Below are positions 3,217 through 61,113 of a DNA stretch of 64,000 bases, in pieces. The DNA is taken from assembly GCA_029964075.1 (NCBI GenBank), contig CM057136.1:15178381-15242380 (forward strand). The letters run 5' to 3'. This DNA comes from Patiria pectinifera (Eukaryota > Echinodermata > Asteroidea > Valvatida > Asterinidae). How positions within the stretch are numbered: the first letter of the stretch is position 1; each line of letters starts with the position of its first letter. The position numbers were made by a program, and so were the translations under genes. The notes under the pieces are model-generated. The model did not search any database and was not told the origin of the DNA. It was given only the letters and a program-made list of their open reading frames with translations.

Positions 3217-3331
3217 GGAGAGTACATAGTCCTCATCAAGAAGATTGATGCCAATTGGTGGGAGGGAAACATTGGAGATAGGAAAGGAATCTTCCCCGCT
3301 GCCTACGTGGAGGTGCTCCGAGAACCTACAG
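3217..3331 (+). CDS. SORBS: SORBS-like exon: rest of SH3-2
   Basis: Phase 0 in, phase 1 out (donor G|gtaaga). It encodes GEYIVLIKKID, the tandem Trp NWWEGN and GIFPAAYVEVL, completing SH3-2. The next exon in phase is 6.2 kb downstream at 9519. Confidence 0.92.
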
Positions 3332-3727
3332 GTAAGATACAAGCTTTGGACTTGTCCATTTTTTTTATAGGGTACCAATTAATTTTTGGCCCAGATTTTT
3401 TGAAATGCTTTAGAAGCTTACTTCTTGATTTTTGTTTCCGCAAAAATTTTTGTGTCCTGCTTTTGACCTCTAGCATGTTTTGTAATTTGTGTGTCGAAAA
3501 GTGATCATGGTTAAATCAATTTTTGAAGCCGCGGATCCAAAACAAAGTCCTTAATGGACAACCTTGTTTATCGGTTCCCACAATTTCCTGCTGGTTGTTT
3601 AAAACTAAAAAGTATACATACACAGAGGGGTTAACCCTAGAAGTTTGGATAGCAAATAATAAACATTGATAGTTGTGTTATTCATGTACTTACATGTATA
3701 GCCCCACCAAAGAAGCCATGTGGCTAT

Positions 3728-19125: not shown

Positions 19126-20209
19126 TTATAAGTCGTCGCTCTCGCCTCCCCAAGAACTTGGCCCAACGACGTTCCCAACGATCTGCCTCGACCGAGCAAC
19201 CTCGGCAGCTCTCTGACGGCCTCCTGGAGAATATTGATCCTCCTCATAGCCCCAAGATGTGGGACGCTGGTTGAAGTTGTCGTGATGGTCGGTTTGAATG
19301 TGACCGGGACTCCATCCGCGGGCAGTCCGGTTGTAGTCCATTTCATAGGGCTGGACTCCAGAGTGGAACCTCATTTTGCTCGTTTCTCCCTTCCAAGTGC
19401 ATCCGATCTTGACGGGTTTGTTGCCGGCCTTCGAGGGAGCCTGTTGGCGTTGGCGGATGGAGTCGACCTGACTGTAACCAGGCGGCCCTCGTTTCTGGAC
19501 TTGGGCTGGATTCTGTAGTTTAGGCTTTGGTTTGGGTTTGGGTACAGGCGGCTCGAAGGCCCTATCTGGGAGACCTAGAGGGTGTTCGGCTGCTTCCTCC
19601 CATGGGCTCCTCTGCCAGGGCCGCTTCCCTCGATCTGTGGCGTCTACACCATATGGATCTTGTTGTTGGTAATACCCTTGTCCTGGAGACTCTTCGACAA
19701 CATACTGATCAGACCGGTCCTTCATTCTCTGAAACAGAGCTGCCGCTCGACCATCCCTCCTCCCCGTCATCAGCTCGCGACTCGCCATGGGTCTGCTGGA
19801 ATTGTACCTCTGACTCTGCGATGGTCCTCCGATGATGTCCCTTGGCCGTAGTCGTACGCCCCTCCCAGGTGGTGGGTGAACCTCTGGGTGTCTGGTCACA
19901 GGACCGGTGTAAAAATCGTGCTCGATCGCCTTGACTAGCTTCCTCAAGTGTCCTATCTGTGGGCCTGTGTCTTTGAACTGTACTGTGTATTCTGGTATCC
20001 CCTTTTGCTTCAGGTACATCAACGCGCCCCTGTGAGAGGGGCGTGTTCCTGTCAGTTCTTCCAAGCTAAGCTCGTGTAGCTCTACCGGGTGATACTCTTG
20101 GGCGTACTGGGGCCACATGCAGGTTGGATAGCAGGTGGCCTGAAGTGATATCAATATTATACTCTGTTGTGTGAATAGGTGAAGCAGGTGTTGCTATTCC
20201 ATCTTCGAT
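19126..20209 (-). CDS. SYNPO2-like: Alternative last exon of the synaptopodin-2-like gene (distal C-terminus)
   Basis: Acceptor ttttgctgcag, stop TAA at 19126-19128, poly(A) signal 55 nt later. Motifs run in the same order as in the exon at 28113-29374: DRSDQYVVEE (RSDQYVIDE there), SPWEEA with D.AF (SPWEAA, D.AF), YSQVDS (FSQVDS), DYNR..RGW (DYNR..RAW), and a final ESDDL (ETGDL). An N-terminal block (HPVELHELSLEELTG, TVQFKDTGPQ, RKLVKAIEHDFY) has no counterpart there. From the acceptor, phase 0 opens with IEDGIATPASPIHTTEYN but stops after about 40 codons. The main frame only becomes open past a GGCCCCAG run (G4 at 20109-20112 on +). One C fewer would fuse the two readings, so a frameshift allele, an assembly indel or a later acceptor must be assumed. 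Confidence 0.7.
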
Positions 20210-23200
20210 CTGCAGCAAAACATAAAAAGATGAAACAGTTTATGAATAAGTGCACCACTATTTTCTGAGTAACACTAAACAAAGATTGTCTTTCACTCAA
20301 GATCCCCATTTCTTCATTTTGTGGTTAAATGCTCACATTATGGTTTTGTAATTTAGAACTCTCTGTACAACTCACTCTTTCAAAACACTCCCCCGAAACC
20401 ATTACCACACTTTCCACCTCTTGTACTTCCTCAAAACCACTATTCGCCTCTTCATGAACCCTCCTCCCACGGGCTCGGTAACCCGATCCCATTACATTCA
20501 CCCAACATCATCATCACTTTCTATCTTCACCACTACTCAAACTTACTCCCTGCTTACATTAGAAGCACGTACGGTCAGTGAAATTGTCTTTGAGTTAATT
20601 AAGAATAAATGAAAAAGTAAACGAATCAGTGGAGAAAAAAAAACAGTCAATTGTGAATTGTAATACTTTTTAAAGGCATATCCAAGCAAGGCGGTAATTA
20701 TCAAAATAGCGAGGCAACGAACCAGGTTCACGACCTCCTCGGTCGTAACCGGTCATTTTGTTTTGTCAAGTTTATAAAATCTTCCAATTTTACGAATACC
20801 GGAGCAGCGGGGATTATCTTCAATTTGTTTGGTTTGGAATTTGCCGCGCAGCAGTACATATTATTGTGATCTACAAGATTAATCTATTTAGGAATGCAAG
20901 CGTGACAAATAACAGATAGGAAAGATGAAAGTCACAGCGTTTGAGAAAGGCAATCTCGCTTAAAATTGAGCATCGCAGATGCGAACTCAATTACTGTTAC
21001 CAATGTCATGCGTCTGCAGCACGTGTGCCTTTTCCGCGTGTAAACAAATTTCCTTTTCGGATTTGTATCACCTCACTTCCTTCTGGTCGGTTGATGAACA
21101 ACCTGTCAGTTCAAAGTTGACATTCCTTCCCCCTCGTAACATGCAAAAGCCAAGTGTGTAAAAGTAATGTTTGGAAGTTTGACAGGAAACTCCTTGGAAT
21201 CGTAGGTGGGAATGAGACGGTGTTTACTCACAATAACACATGAATCACACGGAATATGATCGTAGGAAGTGGCGTGAATGAACTGTCACACAATGGAGGT
21301 CGATGACATTTGAAATGCGACCCCAATCCGATGAAAAAATAAATCACATTATTCTTTCCAAATGTATTTTAGGCATAGGCCTGTAAGTCAGCCAGACCTC
21401 TTTTAGCAACATGGTGTGTCTCACCTTTTAGTCTTTTTGAAATGAAATAATATTTCTGGGAGTGTGACTAAATTAGTTGTAGAACGTCGTGTATCAATGT
21501 ATTTGTTTTTTTAATGATGGTACAGTACATACTTTGATAAAACTACCCTTCAAAATTGGTAAACAGGTAAAACCTTTCGAGAGAGGAACTGTTTTGTCAT
21601 GTTCGGCATAAGCATTCACATACTTGTCATCGAGACAGCCAATAACGTTCACCCATGTCCAGTTATGTTCCAATTAAATCAGTTTTGCTCCAGGCTCTTG
21701 TCACATACCACAGGCATTACAAGCAACTCTCTAACCATCAGAAGACGACCTTTGAGACCCCAGGGTATTCTCAAGTTTAACCCTTGCTCTTTGCAAAAAA
21801 GCGGTACCATAACCTTGGAGTGGGGGCACATGCTTTCACGGTGACAAATATTCTGGGAAACCCGCGGTGGAAAATGTCTTTGTTGTCAGGGAGAAAGTGC
21901 AAGCATGACTCATAATTAAATGCAGTCATTGGAAATAAAGGGTTTTTTTGTTGGGGAGAAAACGGTATTTGTTGTTGCCAAAATTTATTGGATTTAATGA
22001 CCACCCTCCTATACGGATAATTTTTAACAAACATTGTTGATTTTTTTCCTTCAAATTTAAGGCAAAACATTATTATTGAAATATGTCATTAGTTTTACAT
22101 TTTATATGAGCCAAGAATCGGAACTTATGCTTAATTTAGTTCAACTTAATTATACTTGACAATGAACGGGGATCTGAAGTGCAAATCGGTAAAACAAAAT
22201 CACAATTCAAAGGTGTTTTGTACATTATGCAATTACGTGTTCTATATATTTTTATAAGAAAAATGAATTACTGCAGAGGGAACAGATTTAAATCGATACT
22301 GTCTCAAATTAACTTCCTTGATGTGGCATGTAATAATTGGAAACGTGATAATTCTCAAAAAGACCCCCAGGCTAAGTTATATAATCCAAATGTGATATCA
22401 CAACGTTCGTCACCAGACCGCACACAGCATGCATTACAAATAATCGCCCATAGATTTGTATATACAGTTGTCACAAGAAATAACACATCCCGCGGGTAAC
22501 TCTATATCCCTCGCGTGAAGACTCCCCAAGGGGCCTTTCTGAAATTAATATTACTCTGGAATTAAGAGTCTGGCGGTGTGAGGCGATGAATGCACTTTCT
22601 TTGCCCTTTTCAAAACCTAAGAAACTAGTTGAGGAGACCGCGCCAAAGCAGATGCGCGCTCGATATTCTTTGCACGCGATTGGATACTGTCACTCTTGCA
22701 GAAGAGGTCGAGATTCTAATTTGGTATCTCGCATGGTCCTTGGAGAAAATTACTTTTGGTTTCATTTCCTTGAGACGGTAGAATGGTTCTCCGTTCCTCG
22801 TAAACTGCATATGTGTCTGAGATGTGAGACTGGCCATCTGGTTTGGTGAAAGTAATTAGACTATGCAAACAGAGACATGACGTTTACTGTACCAGTTGTG
22901 CATGAGCAAGTGAGACTTTGTTCTGTTTATAAAAAAAACCTCTTCAATGCTCCGTTAAATTTATCATTACCACAATCACCAATTCACCATCATCAACAAT
23001 CATCACAAATAAACCTTCTCTAACTTTATAACGATTCCTCGTCTCATTTTGCAATCAGACTTTTATAATTACTGGTATACAATGATATGCCCTCACCATG
23101 TGGTACTATCAGGATGATCATAGGACGCTATATGCATCAGTGACCAAGATCATTCTGATGTAATTATGTAAATATGTATCTTCAATACTCCATTTCAGAC

Positions 23201-23760
23201 TGGGGTCCGAAATAAGTACTGAATGTTTTAGTCAAGCATTTATAAAAATGTATGATTAATTTGTTTAAATAAGGCATAAAAAACGTATTAGAAGAAAACA
23301 AATAGGCTCTTGGTCCTTTTGAGTGTTGGTTATCAATTGAATTGATTCACTCTGTGATTTAAGTCGTCGAAATGCTGGAAGGTATTTGAGCAATTGCCGT
23401 CTTGCCCCCAAAAAAGTCGTCAGTTTACTTTGTAGCAAAAAAAAGTGCGCGTACTATTATTTCATGCTTCGGGCACGCTTGGAAAATAACGCTATATAAC
23501 CACACCATTAATGCATCGTATTCCTACACTGGGGAATAAAAACTACTCAGAGAAAAATGATGTTCTAGCTCTTGCGATTGGTTAGAGCTAGGAAATGTGT
23601 GAGGACAACGTTTTGATGAATTTTTTTCGACATCTCTTTAGACATTATTATTGAAACGTTTGGTGCCATTTTGTGAGAGAGAGAAAAATCGGAGACACTT
23701 TTCTAGGAATAACTCTTTGGTAGCCGAGCCAAATTTCTTCATACGAAAAATGAAGCTTAC
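20210..23760. other. Intron of the long 3' form
   Basis: No exon or recognisable repeat seen. AT-rich, with only short open frames scattered on both strands. Confidence 0.5.
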
Positions 23761-24289
23761 CTTTCTCTTCGTGGTGAGTCTATTGTCCAAGCAATTTCGT
23801 TTTCCTAGAGTAGAGAGATCTCCACCTTGTTCTGACAAAATCTGTCCTCCAAACTGTGATGGGATGGGACCCCTGGACCTAGGCCCGGTCACGGGCCGGT
23901 CGAAGGTGGACTGAGACTGGCGATGGACCTTGAAGACCAGTACTGAAGTCTCGCTCTGGTGATCGTCTATGTTCAGATTATCATCACTGTACCTCTCAGA
24001 TCCTCCACTGTCTGGTCCTATCGCTATCAGCAACCTGGTAGGCAGGGTGTTGCAGTAGAATGCTGGGTATGTTCCAACGCTGGTTGGTGCCCGGTAATAT
24101 ATGCGCGTCGGGGTTTCCAAATTTGGGCATGGGTTGGTTTTGAGTTGGTGTCCGCGACTTAGAGCGACAGTGTCTGATGTGGTGGCGGCTCGGTCTCTTG
24201 GCAGATGAGGTTTTCAGTTTCACCACAGACACGATTGACCTCACAGACTCGGTCACGTCACCACCGTGACCGCAAACAGTAACAAACAT
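23761..24289 (-). CDS. Candidate penultimate exon of the long 3' form
   Basis: It ends in a consensus donor (AAGAGAAAG|gtaagc) in phase 0, matching the phase-0 acceptor at 20209. One frame is open from about 24220 to the donor. It includes TRIYYRAPTSVGTYP, GGSERYSDDNLN and GPIPSQFGGQ. An overlapping frame, open from an ATG at 24289 (MFVTVCGHGG) to about 24000, also looks protein-like and includes KRPSRHH and QPMPKFGNP. The frames would fuse if one C were removed from the C4 run at 24110-24113. The 5' boundary is therefore uncertain. If spliced from the donor at 29823, an acceptor near 24195 or 24208 would fit phase 1. No domain recognised. Confidence 0.45.
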
Positions 24290-27200
24290 TACGAGGAACT
24301 GTGTGCTTACGTTATAACCCGAAGCAAAACCTCACAGAATAAAATGCGAATGCTTGTACCTCTGCTTCTTAGTGTTTTAGTGTAGTTGCACCGTTCGTTA
24401 TTTTAGATGAAATAAATTTACACTTGATTTAGGCTTTTAAATACTGTGTTTATATTTAAAAGAGGATATACAATTTTTTATGAAGTTAATTGAGATTGCT
24501 CTGTCTTGAATACTGTATGCAGCGTCCTTTACAATGACCTTTACACAATAATTCTACTCTCGCTGCTCGATGCGCGAAGTAATGCGATTGTGAGGTTTAA
24601 AGGCAGTTTATCGCATTTTGCAAAATGTCAGATGAAATGCGGGCAATTTTAAGTTTTTGACGTCTGCGTGACAATTTTAACTTTCAGTGTGGTATGAATA
24701 TTGGTGGCCTGGCCAACCTGATACAGATGTCAATTTATGTGTCTTATATAAGTTAAAAAGTTGAACACTTTTCTCATCCCACAAATATTTTTGCTCTGAA
24801 TATTATTGAACAGAAGTTTTTTGGATTATTCTTCAAGTCATTTTTACTTTACGATGAATATTTTATTAATGCAGGTTTGGAAGTTTCTTTGAAATTTTAT
24901 TTGGAAAACACCTTTAAATGTTGATAAGATAATTATGGGATTCTATCTGTTGTCGTTTCCTAAACAGAACCAGTGTTTCGTAATGCCTTTTCCGTTCACT
25001 CGACCATTCATCATACCAGAGACATTTTTGTACCATGTAAAGGTCATAGGTTACGGTTGTACGAGTTCATCATCCGAGCAGTCGAGCGCCCGGTCGGAAG
25101 TAGTCGGGAAGTGGGTTGATCAGATGGAAACTTCCTCGGTAATTTCCGATAACCCAATCACCAATGAATCTATAAATAAAAACATGTGTCTTGTCAACCT
25201 TCCAAAGCCTATAAACATTTGTGGTTTTAAGAAATGCATAAAAAATACATGCTGGTTTAAAAATAATTTTTACCAATTATATTATTAAGAGGGGCGAAAA
25301 TCAGTACCATGAAGGGGGATTTCCAACTTTGTGAAGACACCCGAAGCGATATTTCAGAGCGTCTCATTTCCAGAAATTGCAGTTTGCCTTCATCACTATC
25401 TTTTTCCTTTTCTCGTTTACAAATTTATTGTTTTTACTCCCATCGCCATGTCCTTAATCTCCCCATATCCTGTATTTACGGGGAATTCCTGAGTAAAGAG
25501 TGCCACTTACAACGCACAATGTCTCCTTGACCGAATACCACTTCACGGTGGCTAAACCCGGGGCCAGGCGAGAAACGAACTAATGGGATTTTACGCGATT
25601 TGGAATGGGCAGACGTGAGACGGTGTTACATTTATAATGTTTATTAATTTGAAATGGAATTTGGACTGCTGATAAAGATCGTTGACGTACTATATCGCCA
25701 ACGTGGTGGGAGGGCGTTGAAGGCCTTTGAAGACGTGACGCAGGTGTAGAAAGGGCATAGCTAGGGGAAAGAAGAAATAACAATGCGAAACAGTAAGATT
25801 GTGTTTGTTTGTTTGTTTATTTCTTTTTTTTTTGCTCTCTAATCATCACAAAGTCTTTTCTTCTGTAGGAATACAATCGAGTAACTAAAAAAAACTGTCA
25901 ATGTCGGTAATTATACACTTCAGTTGAAAAGAGGTGTCCAAAACATTTCAACGAAATCACTTCAGAGTTTACAAACAGTCTTCATGGTACACTGACATGC
26001 TGCCAGTTCGATTATTAGTATTATTACACTGCCAGTGTTTTTTTAAGACAACATCCGAGTTGATTTTGCTTCGTATTCACGCAGATCCACTTCACAATGA
26101 AGTGTGCACGTTTTCCTCTTAACTCAGAGGTTTTCTATTTACATTCGCTTCATTGATTGGATGTAGTACATACGGCGCCTTACTCGTAATATTGCTTGCG
26201 CACATTGAGTATAGAGTGCGTCAGATGTAAGACATTGTTTGACTATTATTATACTCTCTATCTCTAGCATAAAATACATTTCACCATTCCATTAACCACC
26301 CTATAAAACTCATTGATATCCCCGCATACACCCTTTTGTGTATGTAAACTGTACAAGCTGTGATATAATTTTTTTTTTTAAGATGCTATCTTTATTTCTT
26401 TCATATCAACATTGAACCTTGACGTTTTTTTCCTCTTTTTTTGTTTGCGCCAAATTACAGAATCACGTTTGGGGATAATGCATCCTTCAACGTCCGATAG
26501 CTGCACGGGCTTTCATTCTCTCCGAACCCGCTCTCTGTAGTATCATGATTATCAGACTAGTACAAAACCATTTTTTTTTGATATGGCGTTGGAATTGCAG
26601 TTGTTAGCATAACCGCAAACTAATCGCCGTTGTGATTTTCTTTTTTGTTTCGTTGTTCGTTGGATGGTGTCACTGTGACGTCAATTTCGTCATCTCGCGA
26701 CTGATATGCTGAAAGACGTCCATTACAGCGTAGTTATTGTCACCACAAAGTTGGTCAAATTGTTTCATGAAAGAGAAACTTTTCCATCGTAAGAGCCTCA
26801 CTTAAACCTTCATCATTTTACTCCCGTACCAAAATATCATCTTGCAAGCCCGAACTCATTCTAGATCCAATCACGGTACGCCATCTTGATTTTGATTTGT
26901 TTTGTTTTGTTTTGCATTAACAAGCTCCAAGCTTATAGAAAAAGGTTTGAACTTAGAAGCTTTACTATTTCGTCAAATAGTCTTTGTCAAACTGTCATGG
27001 CTTAAGACAAATATGATACGGTAAGTGTTGAAAATATTTGCATGAAAATTCAGCCCATGAAACTGTATTTGGCGCCAAAACACCCGTCCGTATAAATCAC
27101 CACACTTTCCCCCGTATCCCATCAAACGCATCACCATAAATACTTCAGATCTAATGAAATATGCTTTATTATTACTAGTTGCGCAATTCTTAAAAAAAAT

Positions 27201-28112
27201 AATACATTTTCGGACACATTGAAGTCAGGATAGTGCTATGAAAATCGTCTTTCTGTTAGAATGCAAACTTATTTTGTTTGCAGATGTTTTAGAACAGTCC
27301 TTGAATTTTGCCAGCTTTGAACAAATCAATCAAACAATCAAAGTTGTCGCTGCCTGCGAAATAGAATTCAGTAAATATGTTTTCCTTAATGGTGCCTCCA
27401 GTATGGTTTTATATTTATGATGAACACAATAAATAATTTATACATAAGGTTTATAAAACTCAGAAGATGTACATTTATCAAATCAAACGAAACAATCCTT
27501 TGTAAATATTTTCAGCAAACGGGGAACTAGCCTGACAATGCTCGTTCTAAATTTTTAATTACTTAACCAAATCTACTTGGTTATTGTCGTGCACTGAAAG
27601 CAATATACATGCTGACGTGCATATAGTTATATTAACAATAACGATCTAAAGCTCTCGACAATTAATTCTTAACTTACAATTAGTTTTTGTTGACCTTTTG
27701 GTCGTGGTAGTTTACAAAACTTGAGCAATGATTTTTCAAACACAAGTGAACAAATTTGTACAGGATTAAATGTAAGTGCTCAGTATAATAATACAACTGC
27801 ATTCCTACTGGTTATAAATTTGAACACCGCGTTCCCTGTACATGCACATTTGTATTATTTAAAAGATAAATTAAGAGTGCTTAACATCTACAGAGATTTT
27901 GAGGTTTCTCTTTATAAACAATCGTGAATTTTCAGTTTGGGTGAATTATGCCTAGTAGGCCCTATACTTTAAATAATTATGTTATTGAAAATAAACAAGG
28001 TGCATATTATAAAAAACAGGGTTTAAACGTCTGGTATTTTACTCACAATCACAGCAATTATATCCAAGAAAAATATCACAGGCATGCGCAATACGTAATG
28101 CTCCTCAAAGGA
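24290..28112. other. Intron of the long form / 3' flank of the short form
   Basis: No exon seen. Candidate minus-strand poly(A) signals for the short form are TTTATT at 27165-27170 (AATAAA on -), about 940 nt past the stop, and a variant ATTAAA near 27555. Confidence 0.45.
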
Positions 28113-29374
28113 TCAAAGGTCACCAGTCTCACTACGTCCCGGATGTACGGCGAATTTCGCGGGCTTAGGATATTGGTAACTCGCCGGTCTGCCGTTGGCG
28201 GCGGCATTTACAGTGGTCTCAGAACTTGCCCATGCACGAGGCTTCCGATTATAGTCCGAGCCGAATCTGATTGGCCTGACGGGGCCAAAGCTACCGTCTT
28301 CGGCGGAGTTCATTGATGTGGGAGATGTCTCTCCAGAGTTCATCGGGGAATTCCAGCCACGAGGCTTGGGGTTGAAGTCTTGACCTCCTTGAACTTTCTC
28401 TGAAGACACCCTCCTGGCTTTGAATTGGGGTTTGAAAATCGGCGAGCCGGATTCTTTTGGAAGCTGCGGGACAGGCTTTGGCCTGATTAGGGGCGGGTCG
28501 GACTGAGTTTTTGAGAGTGTCTCGTGAGACATGCGAGCTGTGTGCGGTTTGGGTTTGGTTAGTGGGGGAGGCCCGTGCCCCTTCGATGGACTGTCCACCT
28601 GCGAGAAGGATGGTCTCTTCTTCTGTATGTGTTTAAACGCTGCATCGCAACTGCCCGAAGGCGATTCCATTGCTGCTTCCCAGGGGGATTTCTTTGGGAA
28701 ATGCATTTGGTTATCCTGCTTCATGGTAACAGTGGCCGTGGCGATTCCTTTGGGCTTGGGGGTCTTTTTCAAGACCGGTGGGGGTTTGACATTGGTTTCA
28801 TCGATGACGTACTGATCTGATCGTTGGCGGCGCCTCTCAAACATGTTAGCCCCTCTGCCAGTGGCTGCTTTCAAGTCCACGACCAGGCGCCCCATTTCCT
28901 CTGGGCTGACGATGTTGTGCTCACAGACCTCCTTCTTTTTCAGGTTGACTTTGAAGTTTGTGGGCTCCACCTTGAGTCTGTACTTCGTGCCTGGCGGGGG
29001 TGGTGGGGGAGCTTGAGGGATAAAAGGCTTGCCTGGCTCAGGTGGTGGAGGTGGTGGCGGCAAAGGCATCCCAATGGGTACAGCTCCAGGAGGCAAAGGC
29101 CTTCTTCCAGACGCAACCAAAGTGATCTCCACTCCTCTGTCTTCTTGCTCCTCTTCCTCTTCCTCCTCCTCGTTGATGTTTTGACCCATGCCCTCGACCG
29201 ACCAGCGGTCACTGCGCTTGCGCCGTTTGGCGAACATCCGGGCTCCCTTGGCGTGCTTGTCGGCCGGGAACATGAGCAGGTCAGCGATGGTCTTGCATGC
29301 CTTCATTCTCATCTCAGTGCTGATCTCTGGATCGTCTTCTGAGTGTTTGCCCGGATACGAATATGGCCGCTTCA
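28113..29374 (-). CDS. SYNPO2-like: Last exon of the synaptopodin-2-like gene, main form
   Basis: Phase 1 in (acceptor tttgtttcag), stop TGA at 28113-28115, 420 codons, aa 380-799. Order: KRPYSYPG; a helix ending ADLLMFPADKHAKG; GARMFAKRRKRSD (423-435); an acidic run of eight Glu (about 448-458); a proline-rich stretch with P7 and P6 blocks (473-508); GANMFERRRQRSDQY (554-568); SPWEAA (609-614); FSQVDS (636-641); PKPRGW and YNRKPRAW; C-terminus ETGDL. The twice-repeated GA.MF.(K/R)R..RSD is typical of synaptopodin-family actin-binding regions. The proline runs are candidate SH3, EVH1 or profilin ligands. Long plus-strand frames opposite this exon are shadows. Confidence 0.82.
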
Positions 29375-29822: not shown

Positions 29823-30419
29823 TGTCTGGCTCATCTAGTGTACTCTTGTCCTGCTCGCCAGCCTGCGGTGCTGCTCGTCTTAAGATGACTGTTGGCTCTT
29901 CTTTGTAGACTGGTTTCTTATGGACGTCGATCGTCGTAGACACATGGGCCGGCTCCTCCTTAACTGGTGTGATGAGTGTTGCAGGTGTCCCGCTATCGGT
30001 GGAGGGCCTCTTGGCAACAAGACCATGAGGAGCGAAGGTGATGGTGACTTCCTGCCCCACGGATGTCCGTCTTGGTCCGCTCACGGAGCCGCTCCAGGTA
30101 GTGGTGGATGAAGGTTCTGACTCCATCTTGGGCGTGGTCGAGTAGTGGATCTGAGGCTCCCAGCGCATCGGCTTTGATGGAGCACTCTGCTCCTGCTGGC
30201 TTTCCAAGAAGGGCGTTTTGGGTTTCGTCGGCTGGCTTGCGGTGTACTGCACATGCGCCGTAGTGGTGGTGTGCGCAGGCGCACTGCTGGAATACGCTAA
30301 TGGGGGTTTCTTGGCGGGTTGCGTTTTGCTTGGCGGGGACCAGACGGCTGGTTTGGCCACCACGTTGATCTTGGGGGCGTGAAAGGTGACAGCACTGCCT
30401 CCTGCTTGCCGACCCATTC
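29823..30419 (-). CDS. SYNPO2-like: Synaptopodin-2-like exon: Ser/Thr/Pro-rich disordered region
   Basis: Phase 1 in (cctgtttcag) and out (A|gtaagt), 597 nt, aa about 180-380. It starts GMGRQAGGSAVTFHAP, continues with Pro/Lys/Ser stretches (PAVWSPPSKTQPAKKPP) and ends STLDEPD. No fold is expected. The PAVWSPP and KPPLAYSSS segments resemble short linear motifs of PDZ/ZM-type Z-disc proteins, but this is not decisive. Neighbouring introns are 448 bp (29375-29822) and 723 bp (30420-31142) and hold nothing recognisable. Confidence 0.78.
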
Positions 30420-31142: not shown

Positions 31143-31313
31143 CTGTGCCGCCAGTAGACTCCTGTGGAGTTCCATACGTCTTGACGTCACGTTTTGTCGT
31201 CGTCTTCGCCTCCTCCCCCATTCGTTCTGTGATCGTCTTAGTCACCGTCTCTTCCGTCACGCCTCCATCGGATCTGGTCTGCACATGCGTAGTCGTTGAT
31301 GTCTGCTTTTGAC
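31143..31313 (-). CDS. SYNPO2-like: Synaptopodin-2-like exon: Thr-rich segment
   Basis: 171 nt, phase 1 at both ends, so it can be skipped without a frameshift. It encodes QKQTSTTTHVQTRSDGG, then TEETVTKTITERMGEEAKT and a GTPQESTGGTG end. Repeated T.T and charged residues; no domain recognised. Good acceptor (cttccaaag) and donor (gtgaag). Confidence 0.75.
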
Positions 31314-31776: not shown

Positions 31777-31892
31777 CTGGTTGTCTTGGTGTCGCGATCT
31801 GGTAAGTTGGTACTCGGCGTATCTCCGTGTTACCATTCATGTGTTCTGTGGATGAGGCGTTGATTGGTATGGTGGGAGCACCAGTGCTGCGT
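31777..31892 (-). CDS. SYNPO2-like: Synaptopodin-2-like exon after the PDZ domain
   Basis: 116 nt, phase 2 in (ttctattttgtag), phase 1 out (CCAG|gtacga). It encodes STGAPTIPINASSTEHMN and EIRRVPTYQIATPRQP. Short linker with no recognised motif. It fits exactly between the PDZ exon and the Thr-rich exon. Confidence 0.75.
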
Positions 31893-32523: not shown

Positions 32524-32675
32524 CTGACAAGTTCTAGGTCAAGTGTATCCATGGCGTTGTCCACGTAACCCATGGCAATGTCACGTGCCACGTTGCGAAC
32601 GTTTCGACCGTTGACACTGAGGACTTCATCGCCTTCCTGCAACTTGGCGTTGAAAGCCTTGCTTTTTCGTCGAAT
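32524..32675 (-). CDS. SYNPO2-like: Synaptopodin-2-like exon: second half of the PDZ domain
   Basis: 152 nt, phase 0 in (gtgacttag), phase 2 out (AG|gtataa). It encodes IRRKSKAFNAKLQEGDEVLS, then VNGRNV, a helix (ARDIAMGYVDNAMDTL) and the last strand LDLELVR. These are PDZ strands 3-6 and helix alpha-B. The GDEVLSVNG motif is canonical. Confidence 0.9.
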
Positions 32676-35600: not shown

Positions 35601-36659
35601 GGCAAAAAAAATGTGCTTAAAACATCTTCTTCCTCTTTAAATCCCTGTGTGACAATATAAATATGTATGAACTGTACGTGACGTCACGACTGTTTTGCAG
35701 TATGGCACAGCCTGCACCTCGTCGATGGAAAACACCCCTTCAAAGTGACCTTTGATTCAAAATTGACCCCGTTGGGGAATGAGAGAGGGTCTCTTCAATT
35801 ACTGCGTGCACCATGGGAGATAGTTTCATCTCCACAAACACCATCCAGTCGAGACGGACGGTCCCAGTGGGCGTGTCTAAAGGTGAAAGCACTGGGTCTT
35901 CACCAGTTTAGTACTAGTCGGTCATGCGGTCAGCAACCTGCACAATTCTTGTTGTCAGACACCTAAAGCTGTTATGGGATAGACCTATACATGTAGTACA
36001 TTATGTTGTTTACATGCACATATTCATAAGTTGTTATGTGCACTGTCACCCGTAAAATAACTTGGATTGAATTGAAGCGCTTATCGCCCTAAGTGGATGG
36101 AGAGAAATTATTATAATCCCGAGTTAGGTCCTATGTGACGGAACAAAACAGGTGGTATACTGACGCAGATAACTGAACAACTCATGTTAAAAGAAGATGC
36201 AGCTTCAGGCCAGCTCAAGTTAATCCATCCCAACGAAATCCTGCATCACTAGCTCTTGGTGCGTTTGGTTTGACATAAATGTAGTGATAACAATCCAGAC
36301 TGAGGCCTGGTTGTTTAGGTACGACAAGGCTTATAACAACCCCTTGATTGGAACCTTCCTCTAAGTTAAATCAAATTTTCCTGAAGCCGGGGAGAGATGA
36401 GCCAGGCCTAGAAAATGTCCTCCGCATTACGGGAAGTGCTGATGTAATGACAGCCTTTGGAGCTGTCTTCAGCGGATGTTTAAGTGTCAGTTACATTAAA
36501 GCATAGTGCCTTATTAGCATGGGCGTCGCCAGGATTTTTTCGCAAAAATTTTTTTTTTTTTTGCCAAAAAAATTTTTACAAAAATGCTTGTATTTCTTTA
36601 GAGGTTTTAGAGGGGATTTTTCATTTCATTCCATAAATTTACCCCCCTTTGTCTTCGCC

Positions 36660-36711
<52 letters not shown>

Positions 36712-38145
36712 CCCCGGGGGGGGGGCAACTGCCCCCCCCCTCCCCCCCCCCCCCTTAGCGACGCCCATGCTTATTAGCTCACTTTTTCAGATTTATAGAT
36801 ATTGCCGGACAAATTTAAATTGATCAAAAGTTTACACGACGCGAACAGAAGATTTAATTTGTTTTTAGCTGATTCAGGAAACCGTTTTTAAGCAATTTAA
36901 TATCGAACAATGAGCACTTAGTGTACTGAGTTATCTGGACAATTATGTGTGTCGACATATAATTGATTTGACAAACTGCAGGAGAGTAAAACATGAGTAG
37001 GGAAAAATTACTTTGAAATCTAACTTCCGCTTCTGGTCAATATCATTGCTTGAAGCGCGGCATAATCCGCTGTGCACCTGGACAATAAGGCTATATCATC
37101 TTTTAAATCTCATTTTTCATTATGGTAACTTTTCAAATATTAATGTGTTTGCAGAAGACTCGGAGCTGTTTTTGAATGTCAATATTACAAACACCTTTAA
37201 AGTCCATTATCCAACTGGTGAAATTCAGTTTTCTTTCAAAAAGTCGGTTGGGTGTGTCATGTCCATTATATCTTTATATTTTTTTGTGATTAATGCCACT
37301 GAAAGTTGCATAAGGGGAAAAGGATTATTATTGACACCACAAAATATGATGACATTTTTCAGTAAACACTCTCCTGTACCGTAAGGCCTATTTTCTTTTC
37401 ATGTGAATTATGACTCAACCTGAGAAGAGAACTAGATGTATTTCGGTATCGCGTCAGATTGCGGTTTCGTCTGTATCATGAACAGGTCAAGTGTCAGAAA
37501 CTTTCATTTGTTGATTTCGCACTCAGTGAAAATGTGTACAAATTGCGAAATATGCCAAGGTTATTTCAGCCTATTCATCCATTTTATCACTTTTATTCGA
37601 ATATGCAACAACTTATAGCATGAACTAAGAGAAAGCACAGTGCAACAACTTTGGTTTCTTCTATAAAAAGTCATGCAGTTTGTTCGTTCTAAATGCGGAA
37701 GAACTGAAAATTTTCCAGGGACTTTCCTTTTAAACCCAGTTTCCATTTAACTGCGCTATTCAGTGACCTCGCATGTGACATACTAGGAGCGCGTATTGTC
37801 GTGATACGTTGGCTTACTATTTGCCTCAGTAACAAAAATAAACCACCGCGCTAAGTCATAAATCCTAAAGCCATGTCATAACATTAACAGAAAGAAAACA
37901 TTCAAGGGATTTTGATTTTATTTGGATGAACAGGCTGCAGTTCTCGGTGACTTAATCCTGCAGTAAGCTTTTTACGCAACGATTTTTTTACGCAACGAAA
38001 AACTTCAGCTCAACCTTCCCTCTGCTGACCTCCAACAGGACTTTAAAATGTACCTCAGCAGTTATCAACATCAAAACATGCATCTCCTACACTAAAATGA
38101 AATGTACAAAGAGCCCAACAAACAATAAGAATATTATCATCTTAC
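32676..38145. other. Intron, 5.5 kb
   Basis: No exon assigned. It contains the hAT-type MITE at 36518-36769 with its 45-50-nt T tract, a C-run near 34700, and an overlapping pair of open frames at 35285-35588 that I could not tie to any family. Confidence 0.55.
36518..36769. mobile_element. hAT-type MITE with perfect 8-bp target duplication
   Basis: A 252-bp element with a perfect 12-bp terminal inverted repeat, CATGGGCGTCGC. It is flanked by the exact direct repeat CTTATTAG (36510-36517 and 36770-36777). The interior is T-runs (about 48 T at 36664-36711), G-runs and C-runs, with no coding capacity. The intact target duplication implies a fairly recent insertion. Confidence 0.85.
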
Positions 38146-38472
38146 AGGTGATAACAGGTGTGTCTCACTTTTCTCCTTGTCTGCACTGTTTGGTAGTCGG
38201 ACGATGACAGTCGTCAAATCTTTGCAGGGCGGGACGGTGATGACCACCCCACACCGGCCCGTCTCGTCTCCCGGTAGCTCGGTGATCTCCACCCCCTCCC
38301 CGTCCGTCAGAACAGACGGCATACCATATGGGGGACAGGGTGCGGTCCGTCCCCTCCTGGGGAAGGTGCTGGCATTCCTGCTGGACACCTGCTTGGCGAA
38401 TTGGAGAGGGTGGGTGGTGGTGGAGTAGACGGCTGGCCACTCCATTCTTGGCTTGGTAATGAAGATGGGCAT
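38146..38472 (-). CDS. Candidate alternative first exon of the synaptopodin-2-like gene
   Basis: An ATG at 38472 opens 109 codons ending in a consensus donor (TCACCT|gtaaga) in phase 0, the phase needed by the second PDZ exon at 32675. It begins MPIFITKPRMEWPAVYS, continues with a basic FPRRGRTAP segment, then VEITELPGDETGRCG and VIVRLPNS. High GC and a clean donor favour real coding. Use as a first exon would give a protein that starts here and continues into only the second half of the PDZ domain. An acceptor-like ttacaag lies directly before the ATG, so an internal exon is possible, but it would interrupt the PDZ. No domain recognised. Confidence 0.55.
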
Positions 38473-43902: not shown

Positions 43903-43974
43903 GGCTTGTTGGTCTAGTGGTATGATTCTCGCTTCGGGTGCGAGAGGTCCCGGGTTCAATTCCCGGACAAGCCC
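43903..43974 (+). tRNA. tRNA-Pro: tRNA-Pro (CGG), copy 1
   Basis: 72 nt, loop TTCGGGT (CGG), all arms intact, T-run downstream. First of three copies that share the same 5' flank (AACCCAGAAACGAGAGAAAG). Confidence 0.95.
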
Positions 43975-44057
43975 GAATTTTTTTTAGTATATTTTAAGCA
44001 TGAGGCAAATATGGTAAAACCCAGAAACGAGAGAAAGACATCTTTAACTGCATCGAC

Positions 44058-44116
44058 GGCTTGTTGGTCTAGTGGTATGATTCTCGCTTCGGGTGCGAGA
44101 ATTCCCGGACAAGCCC
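44058..44116 (+). pseudogene. Truncated tRNA-Pro (CGG) copy
   Basis: Only 59 nt. The acceptor, D and anticodon arms match its neighbours, but 13 nt are missing between GCGAGA and ATTCCCGG. This removes the variable loop and the 5' half of the T stem, including part of the B-box. It cannot fold as a tRNA and would be a poor Pol III template. Confidence 0.93.
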
Positions 44117-44201
44117 GAATTTTTTGTAAAGTATATTTTAAGCATGAGGCCAATATGGTAAAACCCAGAAACGAGAGAAAGACATCTTTAACTGCATCGA
44201 C

Positions 44202-44273
44202 GGCTTGTTGGTCTAGTGGTATGATTCTCGCTTCGGGTGCGAGAGGTCCCGGGTTCAATTCCCGGACAAGCCC
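44202..44273 (+). tRNA. tRNA-Pro: tRNA-Pro (CGG), copy 2
   Basis: 72 nt, identical to the copy at 43903 across the tRNA body, intact arms, followed by a T8 run. Confidence 0.95.
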
Positions 44274-44589
44274 GTATTTTTTTTCACCAAGGCTCAGGAA
44301 ACAAACTTGAGAACAGAAGATGTTCCGAAACAATTGTAGGTATAGACTTGTAAGTTTTAATTTTTAGCTACTGAATTGTTGCTCCAAGGCTGAATTTTAA
44401 CTAAGCTGATTTGACTCTTTCTAATTGTAACCGCGTGTTGATCTATATCGGGTATGATCAATCAAATCCCTTTTGTTTACGCTTGTAAAAATAGTCGTAA
44501 CGAATCCAATTTGTGTTTCGGGCTGACGTTAAAGGTCAGAGATGTGTCTCGTATATCCGCCCAGGGTAGCCTGTCAGATGTTCTCTGCT

Positions 44590-48317: not shown

Positions 48318-48419
48318 CTTTGAGATGCAGACGGGAGTGCCGTCCCCGCCCATAAATCTTAACCCGAAAGGTGGGCCTCCGGTCATCCGCACCTTAAGTA
48401 GCACCCCTTGTGTCGTCAT
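48318..48419 (-). CDS. SYNPO2-like: First coding exon of the synaptopodin-2-like gene: first half of the PDZ domain
   Basis: ATG at 48419, 34 codons, phase-0 donor (AAG|gtaaat). It encodes MTTQGVLLKVRMTGGPPFGL, then RFMGGDGTPVCISK. GGPPFGLRF is the carboxylate-binding loop of the PDZ fold, and MTGG(A/P)P(W/F)G is the form seen in synaptopodin-2 proteins. The start is chosen because it is the only ATG at the right distance before the first PDZ strand. A CRE-like TGACGTC overlaps the region just upstream. Confidence 0.85.
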
Positions 48420-56539: not shown

Positions 56540-57211
56540 ACTGCATGCAGTAACTGGAAGCGGGTTCTCATGGTTCTGGGAGGGGTTCGCAACCAGACGG
56601 CAGGCATCACACTAACGGAAGCCCACATGGAGAACAAGATGAAAAGGCTCATCCAGCTCAGCCCGGCCGCGCGGAAGTACAAACTGCAGACTTACACCAA
56701 GTTCATGTACGCCCGTCAACCGTTCCGCCGCATCCTATCTACCTATCTGGATAAATTTGGGGGAGAAGCGGTGTATCGACAGGAACAGCACTTTCAGGAC
56801 ATCGCTAAGGGTATCATAAAGCGGTACCGCAAGGACGCCACGACAAGAGACCTTCAAACCGGTGAGAACATCACGTGGTATGAGTGGATGGCCTATCTGA
56901 CCAACCAAACAGAGAGGGCGGGCTTCGATTCCCACTGGCTGGAGATTCACAAGGTGTGCTCGCCGTGTCAGGTCAACTACGATTACTTGGGGAAGCTCGA
57001 AACCGTTGATGACGATGCTAGATATATGCTGACGTCACTAGAGGTACAGGACAAAGCTAACTTCCCAACTGGCGATGAGCACCAGACTAACAGCTCCCAA
57101 GTCTATAATGCGTACTTTGGTCAGGTAACCAAAACATCGCTGCAAAGGCTTTGGGAACTGTACAAGTTAGATTTTGAGCTTTTTGGGTACGACAAGCCGG
57201 ACTTTTTGTGA
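56540..57211 (+). CDS. CHST: Sulfotransferase exon 4: bulk of the catalytic domain
   Basis: Phase 0 in (acaaaaatctag), stop TGA at 57209-57211, 223 codons. It begins TACSNWKRVL, completing the PAPS loop, and contains all remaining family motifs, including KFMYARQPFRRILSTYLDKF, SPCQVNYDY and the C-terminal KLDFELFGY. No break in the frame. Confidence 0.95.
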   Translation, partial: TACSNWKRVLMVLGGVRNQTAGITLTEAHMENKMKRLIQLSPAARKYKLQTYTKFMYARQPFRRILSTYLDKFGGEAVYRQEQHFQDIAKGIIKRYRKDATTRDLQTGENITWYEWMAYLTNQTERAGFDSHWLEIHKVCSPCQVNYDYLGKLETVDDDARYMLTSLEVQDKANFPTGDEHQTNSSQVYNAYFGQVTKTSLQRLWELYKLDFELFGYDKPDFL

Positions 57212-59245: not shown

Positions 59246-59440
59246 CGTTATTGATCTGTGTTTCCTCGCACCAAAAAAACAATTAAATATTTCTACAATT
59301 AATCTTCCCTCATCAGCCCGTTACAATTATAAGTGACAATGTCTTGGACGTTTTGGGGAATGCGTGGTTCCATGTACATATACTAATAATAAACAATTAT
59401 ATTGGTTCAGGTAATCTTGTTCAACATTAGATTCGCTTAC

Positions 59441-59618
59441 CTCGATACTCCCCTTGTCATTCTTCGCGTACAGTTGAGAGTAGGGAGCGCTCGACTGCTG
59501 GTAGGCTACACGGTACTGAGTCACACGAAAGTAGCTTTCGTTGGACCCTTGTGTGATGACGCCATATACTTGGGTATCGCGAACGAGGTCTACCTCTATC
59601 CAGGCACTGGAGTCGTGG
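59441..59618 (-). CDS. F5/8C protein, middle exon of the domain
   Basis: Phase 2 in (gttcacaccag), phase 0 out (GAG|gtaagc). It encodes NHDSSAWIEVDLVRDTQVYG, then VITQGSNESYF and YRVAYQQSS. WIEVDL and the TQG turn are canonical for the F5/8C core strands. NES is a glycosylation sequon. Confidence 0.93.
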
Positions 59619-59804
59619 CTGGTGTGAACGGCGAGAAAAAAAGGGCGAACATGAACTTGGAAGAAGGTAATTATAGAGAAATAAAGTGTACTCGACCACT
59701 GCTGGTGTTGAACTGAATTGGTATGGGCAACAGGGCTTCTCGGATATCGGAATATCTTCGAATGCCATTACCCATGCAGGTGTGCAGCAGGCGAGGTTCT
59801 AGAA

Positions 59805-60180: not shown

Positions 60181-60444
60181 TGGATGAACATTACCAAGAT
60201 AAACTCTGTATATTTCGGTAATTCTTACCTCATCAATCATTATTGATTCTACCATATCAAAAGAAGAATCTGATCAATGCGCAGAAACTGTGCTTGTACG
60301 TAACTCCACTATATTGCGTGCGGCTAGTTTAGAATTTATGGGAAAGTTTTTTGGAGCGTTTTGACTAGGCAAACTTAGATGAGGAGGGGCATGAAAACAT
60401 TTTAAGTCTGGAAGTCATACGGTAAGTGCATGGATTATACTCAC

Positions 60445-60922
60445 TTGGTTGGTCTCCAGAAACCATCGTATCCAAGGCGCCCGTGTGAGGCAGCGAATGA
60501 TCCCTGTGTAGTGGAGGCAGTGATACGCTCATCGGGGATGGTGCCGTCTCGAAGGCCCAAGGGCTCCAAACACCCCTGAGCTGTCGTCGAAGAAGAACCT
60601 GCCGTCGAAGAAGAAACTGCCGTTAAAAAAGAAAGTGCCGTCGAAGAAGAAACTTCCGTCGAAGAAGAAACTGCCGTTGAAGAAGAAAGTGCCGTCGAAG
60701 AAGAACCTGCCGTCGAAGAAGAATCTGCCGTCGAAGAAGAAACTGCCGTTGAAGAAGAAAGTGCCGTCGAAGAAGAACCTGCCGTCGAAGAAGAATCTGC
60801 CGTCGAAGAAGAAACTGCCGTCGAAGGAGAAACTGCCGTCGAAGAAGAACCTGCCGTCGAAGTAGAACCTGCGGACGAAGACGAAACTGCCGTCGATGAA
60901 GAAACTACCGTCGAAGTAGAAA
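60445..60922 (-). CDS. F5/8C protein: mucin-like repeat and start of the F5/8C domain
   Basis: Phase 1 in (tttccacgcag), phase 2 out (AA|gtgagt). About 19 imperfect hexapeptides of the form STAVSS, STAGSS, STALSS or STADSS (18-bp units), then QGCLEPLGLRDGTIPDERIT, ASHGRLGYDGFWRPT. The repeat should be densely O-glycosylated. A block of four or five units is itself duplicated. The Lys-rich plus-strand and FFFDG minus-strand readings are other frames of the same repeat. Confidence 0.9.
60590..60905 (-). repeat. 18-bp tandem repeat (coding)
   Basis: About 17-18 units of TCGACGGCAGTTTCTTCT-like sequence on the minus strand. The 72-90-bp higher-order block (AV, AD, AG, AL units) occurs twice in succession. 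Confidence 0.92.
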
Positions 60923-61113
60923 CTGCGTGGAAAAACGTTAAAATGATACTGACAAGCATTCACAGATGAATAATTGGTTTTAAAACCTCCATACACCAGG
61001 ACAGCGTTTTAGCAAGCAGACCAAAATTAATAGGCCTTAATAAATGCCTTGGCTACTGAGAAGAACATTTCAAATCTTGATCGGATTTGAACTTAAATCT
61101 CGTCTAGGCCTAC

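Follow-up and report, generated by a model that had tools for sequence, protein, structure and literature searches.

Does the synaptopodin-2-like gene of the asteroid Patiria pectinifera switch between two last exons, or do these exons belong to two neighbouring genes? The question arises in a stretch of 64,000 nucleotides, hereafter the window (GenBank assembly GCA_029964075.1, contig CM057136.1, positions 15,178,381 to 15,242,380). There, the original prediction saw two homologous terminal exons serving one PDZ-containing N-terminus, with a tandem gene as its fallback. Coordinates below are window positions unless prefixed with C8, our label for this contig, on which the window is C8:15178381-15242380; C8 makes up 16.77 Mb of the 613.5 Mb genome. 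The locus is best read as two tandem genes on the minus strand, an ancient pair that would be the pre-vertebrate counterpart of SYNPO2-MYOZ2 and its sister pairs, and to this reading we give a probability of roughly 0.58.

Two homologous terminal exons

Both terminal exons were found on the minus strand where they had been placed, the proximal one at 29374-28113 and the distal one at 20209-19126. The distal coordinates stood, while the idea of an exon open from end to end in its conserved frame did not: this frame opens only at 20193, immediately behind a TAG, and has its first ATG at 20118. The motifs said to be shared are shared: both proteins contain each of the six patterns tested (RSDQYV[IV], SPWE.A, D.AF, [FY]SQVDS, DYNR..R[AG]W and a terminal [ST].DL) a single time and in identical order. 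BLASTP aligned the two with an E value of 2e-9 and 38 identical residues out of 107 (36% over the best 107 positions). Their local alignment score was 141 against a shuffle maximum of 79, with none of 500 shuffles reaching it; a gapped end-to-end comparison of the two exons also beat all 500 shuffles, and an ordered chain of nine shared 4-mers, partly overlapping, was reached in 0 of 1000. The similarity of the two exons is beyond chance, and the BLASTP match, the shuffles and the ordered motifs support a duplication of the terminal exon. No direct repeat of at least 30 bases pairs the two exons, and a genome search with either finds only itself at E up to 0.01. The distal protein also proved to be free of the poly-Pro and Glu-rich blocks, as had been proposed: two poly-Pro runs and one Glu run are confined to the proximal protein.

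Reading frames at the distal exon

Splice sites were scored with generic weights. On this scale the five acceptors of the upstream gene reach 1.25-4.26 and its donors 0.22-4.61, and the distal intron has a donor of 7.18 at 23761 and an acceptor of 6.93 at 20209. A reading frame entering at acceptor 20209 is stopped whatever its phase, after 47 codons in phase 0, 16 in phase 1 and 4 in phase 2; the upstream exons therefore cannot reach the conserved region through this site. Donor 29823, from which the switch had been proposed to start, leaves phase 1, as do the donors of exons 3 and 4 and of a candidate alternative first exon (Table 1). Seven acceptors between 20300 and 19990 scored above -3. 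Those at 20163, 20139 and 20106 enter the open distal frame at phase 0 and that at 20029 at phase 2, while 20264 admits phase 1 into the frame but meets a stop after 22 codons, and none of the seven gives donor 29823 a direct in-frame entry. With 20209 closed in all phases and 29823 lacking a direct entry, the proposed switch is not supported, and alternative use of the two last exons as C-termini appears unlikely. The tandem gene is supported by the closed frames at 20209 and by the distal unit having its own ATG and its own AATAAA. The original prediction is supported in its exon duplication and in its fallback, and not in its switch.

Most simply, the distal protein would be translated from its own ATG at 20118, giving 330 residues, and the stretch between acceptor 20209 and this codon is probably untranslated leader. 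The coding sequence carries ELSLEEL, RGALMY, FQRMKDRSDQYVVE, SPWE, NRTARGW and the class III C-terminus ESDDL. A further coding exon, spliced to 20163, 20139 or 20106, could also lengthen the protein. Pfam and NCBIfam searches with the distal protein returned nothing relevant (one irrelevant fragment match, E 0.15), and a PDB sequence search returned no match. No second copy of the DNA around the distal exon was found in the genome, so there is no second allele on which a frame shift could be tested. RNA folding of 20209-20060 was unremarkable (z -1.26).

The distal gene would have a promoter of its own, and its presumed leader exon ends at donor 23761, the highest-scoring of the donors examined. 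Two overlapping open frames lie in this leader (23761-24331, minus strand), frame A with 111 codons and an ATG, and frame B with 151 codons. Frame B runs open up to donor 23761 and contains no Met; it has no Pfam match, and in a genome search it matches only itself.

The upstream gene

Joined, six coding exons on the minus strand read as one uninterrupted frame that runs from MTTQGVLLKVRMTGGPPFGLRFMGG to ETGDL and encodes 799 residues. A PDZ domain (Pfam 35.3 bits, cut-off 23.2) spans positions 12-82 of this spliced product, the N-terminal domain expected of the synaptopodin-2 family. For exon 2 there is a Pfam PDZ match of 29.1 bits, at C8:15210912-15211070. The best PDB matches of the domain are the InaD-like protein and DLG4, followed by several PDLIM and ZASP/Cypher PDZ domains. 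The last exon contains two helix motifs (FAKRRKRSDRWSVE and FERRRQRSDQYVID), the Glu run and the two poly-Pro runs, as well as SPWE, NRKPRAW and the C-terminus ETGDL before its stop; a PDB sequence search with it gave one match only, unrelated, at E 0.69. Running from 48419 to 28113, the upstream gene most likely encodes a synaptopodin-2-type PDZ protein. Between 28113 and 24300 there are eight hexamers reading AATAAA or ATTAAA, weak evidence in DNA that is A+T-rich.

The candidate alternative first exon is phase-compatible with exons 4, 5 or 6 and so would yield a PDZ-less isoform; a Pfam search with it found no match. It is somewhat like the own first exon of the short human SYNPO2L isoform, which PMC11477451 describes as N-terminally truncated and as starting from a unique first exon.

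Resemblance to calsarcins and myozenins

The shared motifs resemble the calsarcin/myozenin pattern of an RSD-(K/Q)-Y helix, SPWE, NRxxxxW and an acidic C-terminus whose last residue is Leu. Scored against the Pfam family PF05556 (Calsarcin, cut-off 24 bits), the proximal exon alone reached 28.1 bits, above the cut-off and borderline. We built a residue pattern from positions invariant in human MYOZ1-3 and, after the two proteins had been seen, relaxed it to allow similar residues; in this relaxed form (helix, PW, NR....W) its parts line up in order in each of the two proteins, and none of 100000 shuffles of either one does so. When the acidic C-terminal residue at the myozenin spacing (position -2) is added, the pattern is found in the distal protein (ESDDL) only, the proximal ETGDL having Gly there. 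Acidity at -2 is the mark of class III PDZ ligands (D/E-x-hydrophobic; PMC10754285), and the distal C-terminus is of this class.

For the proximal exon, hhalign gave a probability of 9.0% against a three-sequence MYOZ profile, a score reached by 0 of 100 shuffles, and for both terminal exons together 15.6%. In pairwise alignments the proximal score was reached by 3 and 1 of 300 shuffles (local and semi-global, respectively) for MYOZ1, by 1 and 0 for MYOZ2, and by 65 and 77 for MYOZ3. The myozenin-1 sequence of PDB entries 7a8u and 7ank includes the SPWE and NRTP stretches and that of 7a8t includes SPWE; PMC10754285 describes 7A8T as alpha-actinin-2 with FATZ-1. By profile, the distal protein is not placed in the Calsarcin family, and the case for it as a myozenin would lie in the ordered residues, the C-terminus and the position of the gene.

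Gene neighbourhood

Searching the genome for the Sec23/24 trunk family gave 11 exon matches at three loci (Table 1). Two are Sec24 loci that flank the window on either side, ~90 kb and ~390 kb from its ends. The Sec24A/B-like and Sec24C/D-like genes lie ~0.54 Mb apart on this one contig, so that both classes of Sec24 are linked here. The CaMKII association domain matched only at C8:3.61 Mb (three exon matches). All five matches of a USP53/54 domain query fell at C8:4.66 Mb, a locus that a profile search for the UCH family did not reveal. The contig that carries the two exons also carries relatives of Sec24, USP53/54 (by the domain query) and CaMKII, the linkage that characterizes SYNPO-MYOZ neighbourhoods. 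We assume that CAMK2 is linked to SYNPO and MYOZ in vertebrates as well, and the three human SYNPO-MYOZ pairs are presumably oriented head to tail. The numbers of loci found (one CaMKII, one USP53/54-like, two Sec24 and one Sec23) suit an animal without the vertebrate genome duplications.

For vertebrates, the published record gives a matching arrangement. MYOZ1 is called adjacent to SYNPO2L at 10q22 (PMC11477451), and in tilapia USP53B, MYOZ2B and SYNPO2B are listed consecutively in one interval of ~170 kb (PMC10286235). Usp53, Myoz2, Sec24d and Synpo2 of mouse chromosome 3 stand in one list for a quantitative trait locus (PMC4204525), SEC24B, SEC24D, SYNPO2, MYOZ2 and USP53 appear together in an alphabetical gene list covering 4q13.3-4q28.3, a large human region (PMC2837036), and MYOZ3 and SYNPO both appear in a paper on 5q deletion (PMC4671954).

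Weighing the readings

On the preferred reading, the first gene, from 48419 to 28113, would be the source of the synaptopodin-2-like PDZ protein of 799 residues. The second, from ~24.3 kb to 19.1 kb, would encode a PDZ-less calsarcin/myozenin (FATZ)-like protein of ~330 residues. Its origin would be an ancient duplicate of the last exon of synaptopodin, and, as the presumed orthologue of MYOZ, it would most likely be the pre-vertebrate equivalent of the MYOZ gene that lies close to vertebrate SYNPO genes.

Several results weigh against this. The distal protein does not match PF05556. The proximal sequence falls below the cut-off of that family in the spliced protein, at 20.3 bits, and scores 17.8 bits for its last 280 residues, and a genome search with the profile found a single place, at E 1.5 and 15.7 bits (29.4 with frame neighbours). 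Neither protein matches the strict form of the MYOZ1-3 residue pattern, and a genome search with MYOZ2 gave no match up to E 10 (2 candidates). Against the three-sequence MYOZ profile, hhalign gave the distal protein a probability of 1.1%, with 1 of 100 shuffles as high. Its alignment scores were reached by 121 and 54 of 300 shuffles (local and semi-global) for MYOZ1, by 7 and 0 for MYOZ2, and by 49 and 7 for MYOZ3. The context of ATG 20118 is poor, with neither the purine at -3 nor the G at +4 that the rule for start codons asks for, and four upstream ATGs precede it in the assumed leader, one opening 97 codons. In-frame routes from the upstream exons do exist through lower-scoring acceptors. 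Leader frame B outscores all 3000 non-coding samples in codon scoring; other frames of the leader stretch score nearly as high, the scoring tracking composition more than frame and being too coarse to fix the frame of the 24 kb exon. The scores for distal 19129-19700 and for the 38 kb exon, taken out of frame, are left aside. The USP53/54-like and CaMKII loci lie 10.5 and 11.6 Mb away, which is linkage and not adjacency. Finally, the distal protein is far closer to the proximal protein than to any MYOZ, so that a lineage-specific duplication is possible.

Such a duplication, the best of the alternatives, would make the distal unit a separate PDZ-less copy of the synaptopodin end, with a myozenin likeness that comes from shared descent from synaptopodin-like ends. 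The closeness of the two terminal proteins and the missing Calsarcin match of the distal one would follow naturally. It fits poorly with the large divergence of the exons (36% over the best 107 positions, with no shared direct repeat of at least 30 bases), with a C-terminus that is acidic at -2 like that of myozenin where the proximal protein has Gly, and with a location beside a synaptopodin gene that matches vertebrates. We regard it as unlikely, if still worth keeping in mind.

Splicing of the upstream exons to the distal exons, giving one gene with alternative C-termini, is improbable, and the routes open to it were enumerated in full. There are four direct in-frame joints, from exon 1 to 20163, 20139 and 20106 and from exon 2, with which the PDZ domain is complete, to 20029 (score 1.88), this last at the loss of ELSLEEL. 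Two-step routes through the 24 kb exon number 70: 13 from exon 1, 9 from exon 2, and 12 each from exons 3, 4 and 5 and the candidate first exon. The best from exon 5 runs through acceptors 23804 (1.20) and 20163 (1.70) and the best from exon 2 through 24034 (1.73) and 20163 (1.70), both by way of donor 23761. The common strand, the high-scoring sites at 23761 and 20209, the homologous C-terminal modules and the open frame B of the 24 kb exon, coding-like in composition, would all suit such a gene. Yet every in-frame route bypasses 20209, the best acceptor, and donor 29823 finds no direct entry. The acceptors of the best routes score 1.2-1.9. In four non-exon stretches (18.9 kb), acceptors of at least 1.2 occur at 1.4 to 3.4 per kb, so that sites of this strength are expected by chance; acceptors of at least 6.9 occur twice in the same 18.9 kb. 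Since the route acceptors score about as high as the weakest of the upstream gene's own (1.25), we grade the switch as unlikely and go no further.

Least probable, and compatible with the other readings, is that the distal unit is a decaying copy or has a frame broken by an assembly indel, as might be read from frame B, which is coding-like in composition, stays open for 151 codons, continues in phase across the strong intron and, with the 47 codons beyond it, abuts the conserved frame with a one-base shift; against this, 330 codons are intact with motifs and C-terminus, the bases behind the acceptor do not look clearly coding, with 8 to 12% of 3000 non-coding samples reaching their score, and frame B has no Met.

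Features of the window and linked loci

The features that enter the argument are collected in Table 1. Elsewhere in the window, a G run of 13 and an A run of 48 bases lie close together at 36640-36800 (minus strand), possibly the tail of a retroelement or a stretch prone to assembly errors. A short open stretch at 43918-44363 is present in two direct copies (KHEANMVKPRNERKTSLTASTACWSSGMILASGAR, plus strand) and looks like a repeat element. A tandem repeat at 60441-61008 can be read through in several frames of either strand (one minus-strand example is SSSTAVSSSTA), and near it an F5/8 type C domain exon occupies 59327-59767 (minus strand). Two neighbouring genes lie on the plus strand, one with part of an SH3 domain at 3217-3504 (25.4 bits) and one with a Sulfotransfer_2 exon at 56540-57211 (161.5 bits).

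Table 1. Exons, signals and linked loci (window positions unless a contig is given)
Feature	Position	Strand	Remarks
Exon 1, coding part	48318..48419	-	ATG and first part of PDZ domain; ends phase 0; frame joins
Candidate alternative first exon	38169..38472	-	ATG, 101 codons, ends phase 1; between the two PDZ exons
Exon 2	32524..32675	-	Rest of PDZ domain; ends phase 2; Pfam PDZ match
Exon 3	31777..31892	-	Ends phase 1; frame joins
Exon 4	31143..31313	-	Phase 1 to phase 1; frame joins
Exon 5	29823..30419	-	Phase 1 to phase 1; its donor, 29823, is the one named in the original prediction
Last exon (proximal)	28113..29374	-	Acceptor 29374 and stop 28113 fit; continues upstream frame
Presumed leader exon of distal gene	23761..24300	-	5' limit uncertain; donor 7.18
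5' part of distal terminal exon	20119..20209	-	Acceptor 6.93; stops after 47, 16 and 4 codons
Distal myozenin-like coding sequence	19126..20118	-	330 residues and stop
AATAAA	19066..19071	-	55 bases past distal stop
Sec24A/B locus	C8:15.085-15.088 Mb		Best PDB match of one exon: Sec24B 120.9 bits, Sec24C 59.9
Sec24C/D locus	C8:15.633-15.635 Mb		Sec24C 82.3, Sec24D 73.0, Sec24B 68.0 bits; modest margin over 63 residues
Sec23 locus	C14:42.97 Mb		Best PDB match of one exon

Proposed roles and comparison with known systems

The roles proposed here are judged from the two protein families; both proteins are expected to be mostly disordered. With its helix motifs and proline runs, the synaptopodin-like protein would serve as a scaffold for actin and alpha-actinin, and its PDZ domain would add partners. 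In the distal protein, the SPWE region would be the site that binds alpha-actinin and the class III end ESDDL (D-x-L) a ligand for PDZ domains of the PDLIM/Enigma kind, making this protein an independently expressed adaptor of the Z-disc type. FATZ proteins bind PDLIM/Enigma PDZ domains (PMC9751615).

Tentatively, and with somewhat less than even odds, we extend the two-gene reading to the origin of the family: myozenins may be split-off synaptopodin ends. Before the vertebrates, a PDZ-synaptopodin with a myozenin-like tail would have had its last exon duplicated in tandem, and the pair would have stayed neighbours through the vertebrate genome duplications to give SYNPO2-MYOZ2, SYNPO2L-MYOZ1 and SYNPO-MYOZ3; one gene would then have kept the PDZ half and the other the PDZ-ligand half. 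In the literature searched, which was seen in part and left subscription journals mostly outside, nothing was found to say that myozenins go back to a tandemly copied synaptopodin end. Already known are the calsarcin domain in synaptopodins, published in PMC11753949, and the SYNPO-MYOZ neighbour genes of vertebrates. If true, the proposal would supply an origin for the myozenin (calsarcin) family of calcineurin binders at the muscle Z-disc and explain why vertebrate synaptopodin genes have a myozenin neighbour. It would also bear on loci such as 10q22 in atrial fibrillation, where PMC11477451 links the same variants to the expression of SYNPO2L and MYOZ1. The locus further illustrates how a duplicated exon can mimic alternative splicing until its reading frames are checked.

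Compared with MYOZ1-3 (PF05556), the distal protein has the RSDxY helix residues, the PW of SPWE, NRxxxxW, the acidic residue at -2 and the final Leu, and differs in having no profile match (hhalign 1.1%). Like the synaptopodins (SYNPO, SYNPO2, SYNPO2L and fly CG1674), the proximal protein has an N-terminal PDZ domain, nearest among PDB matches to several of the PDLIM/ZASP type once InaD-like and DLG4 are passed, and a calsarcin helix of borderline score; it differs from them in ending with PW, NRxxxxW and ETGDL, an ending that we take human SYNPO2 to lack. As in the vertebrate pairs SYNPO2L-MYOZ1 (human 10q22) and SYNPO2-MYOZ2, a synaptopodin-2-like gene here lies near a myozenin-like gene, with relatives of Sec24 and USP53/54 linked. 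Unlike in those pairs, the distal protein has no Pfam Calsarcin match, seemingly comes from one coding exon and has a second, degenerate helix-like stretch, RGALMYLKQ, identified by eye, while the synaptopodin-like protein retains a myozenin-like tail.

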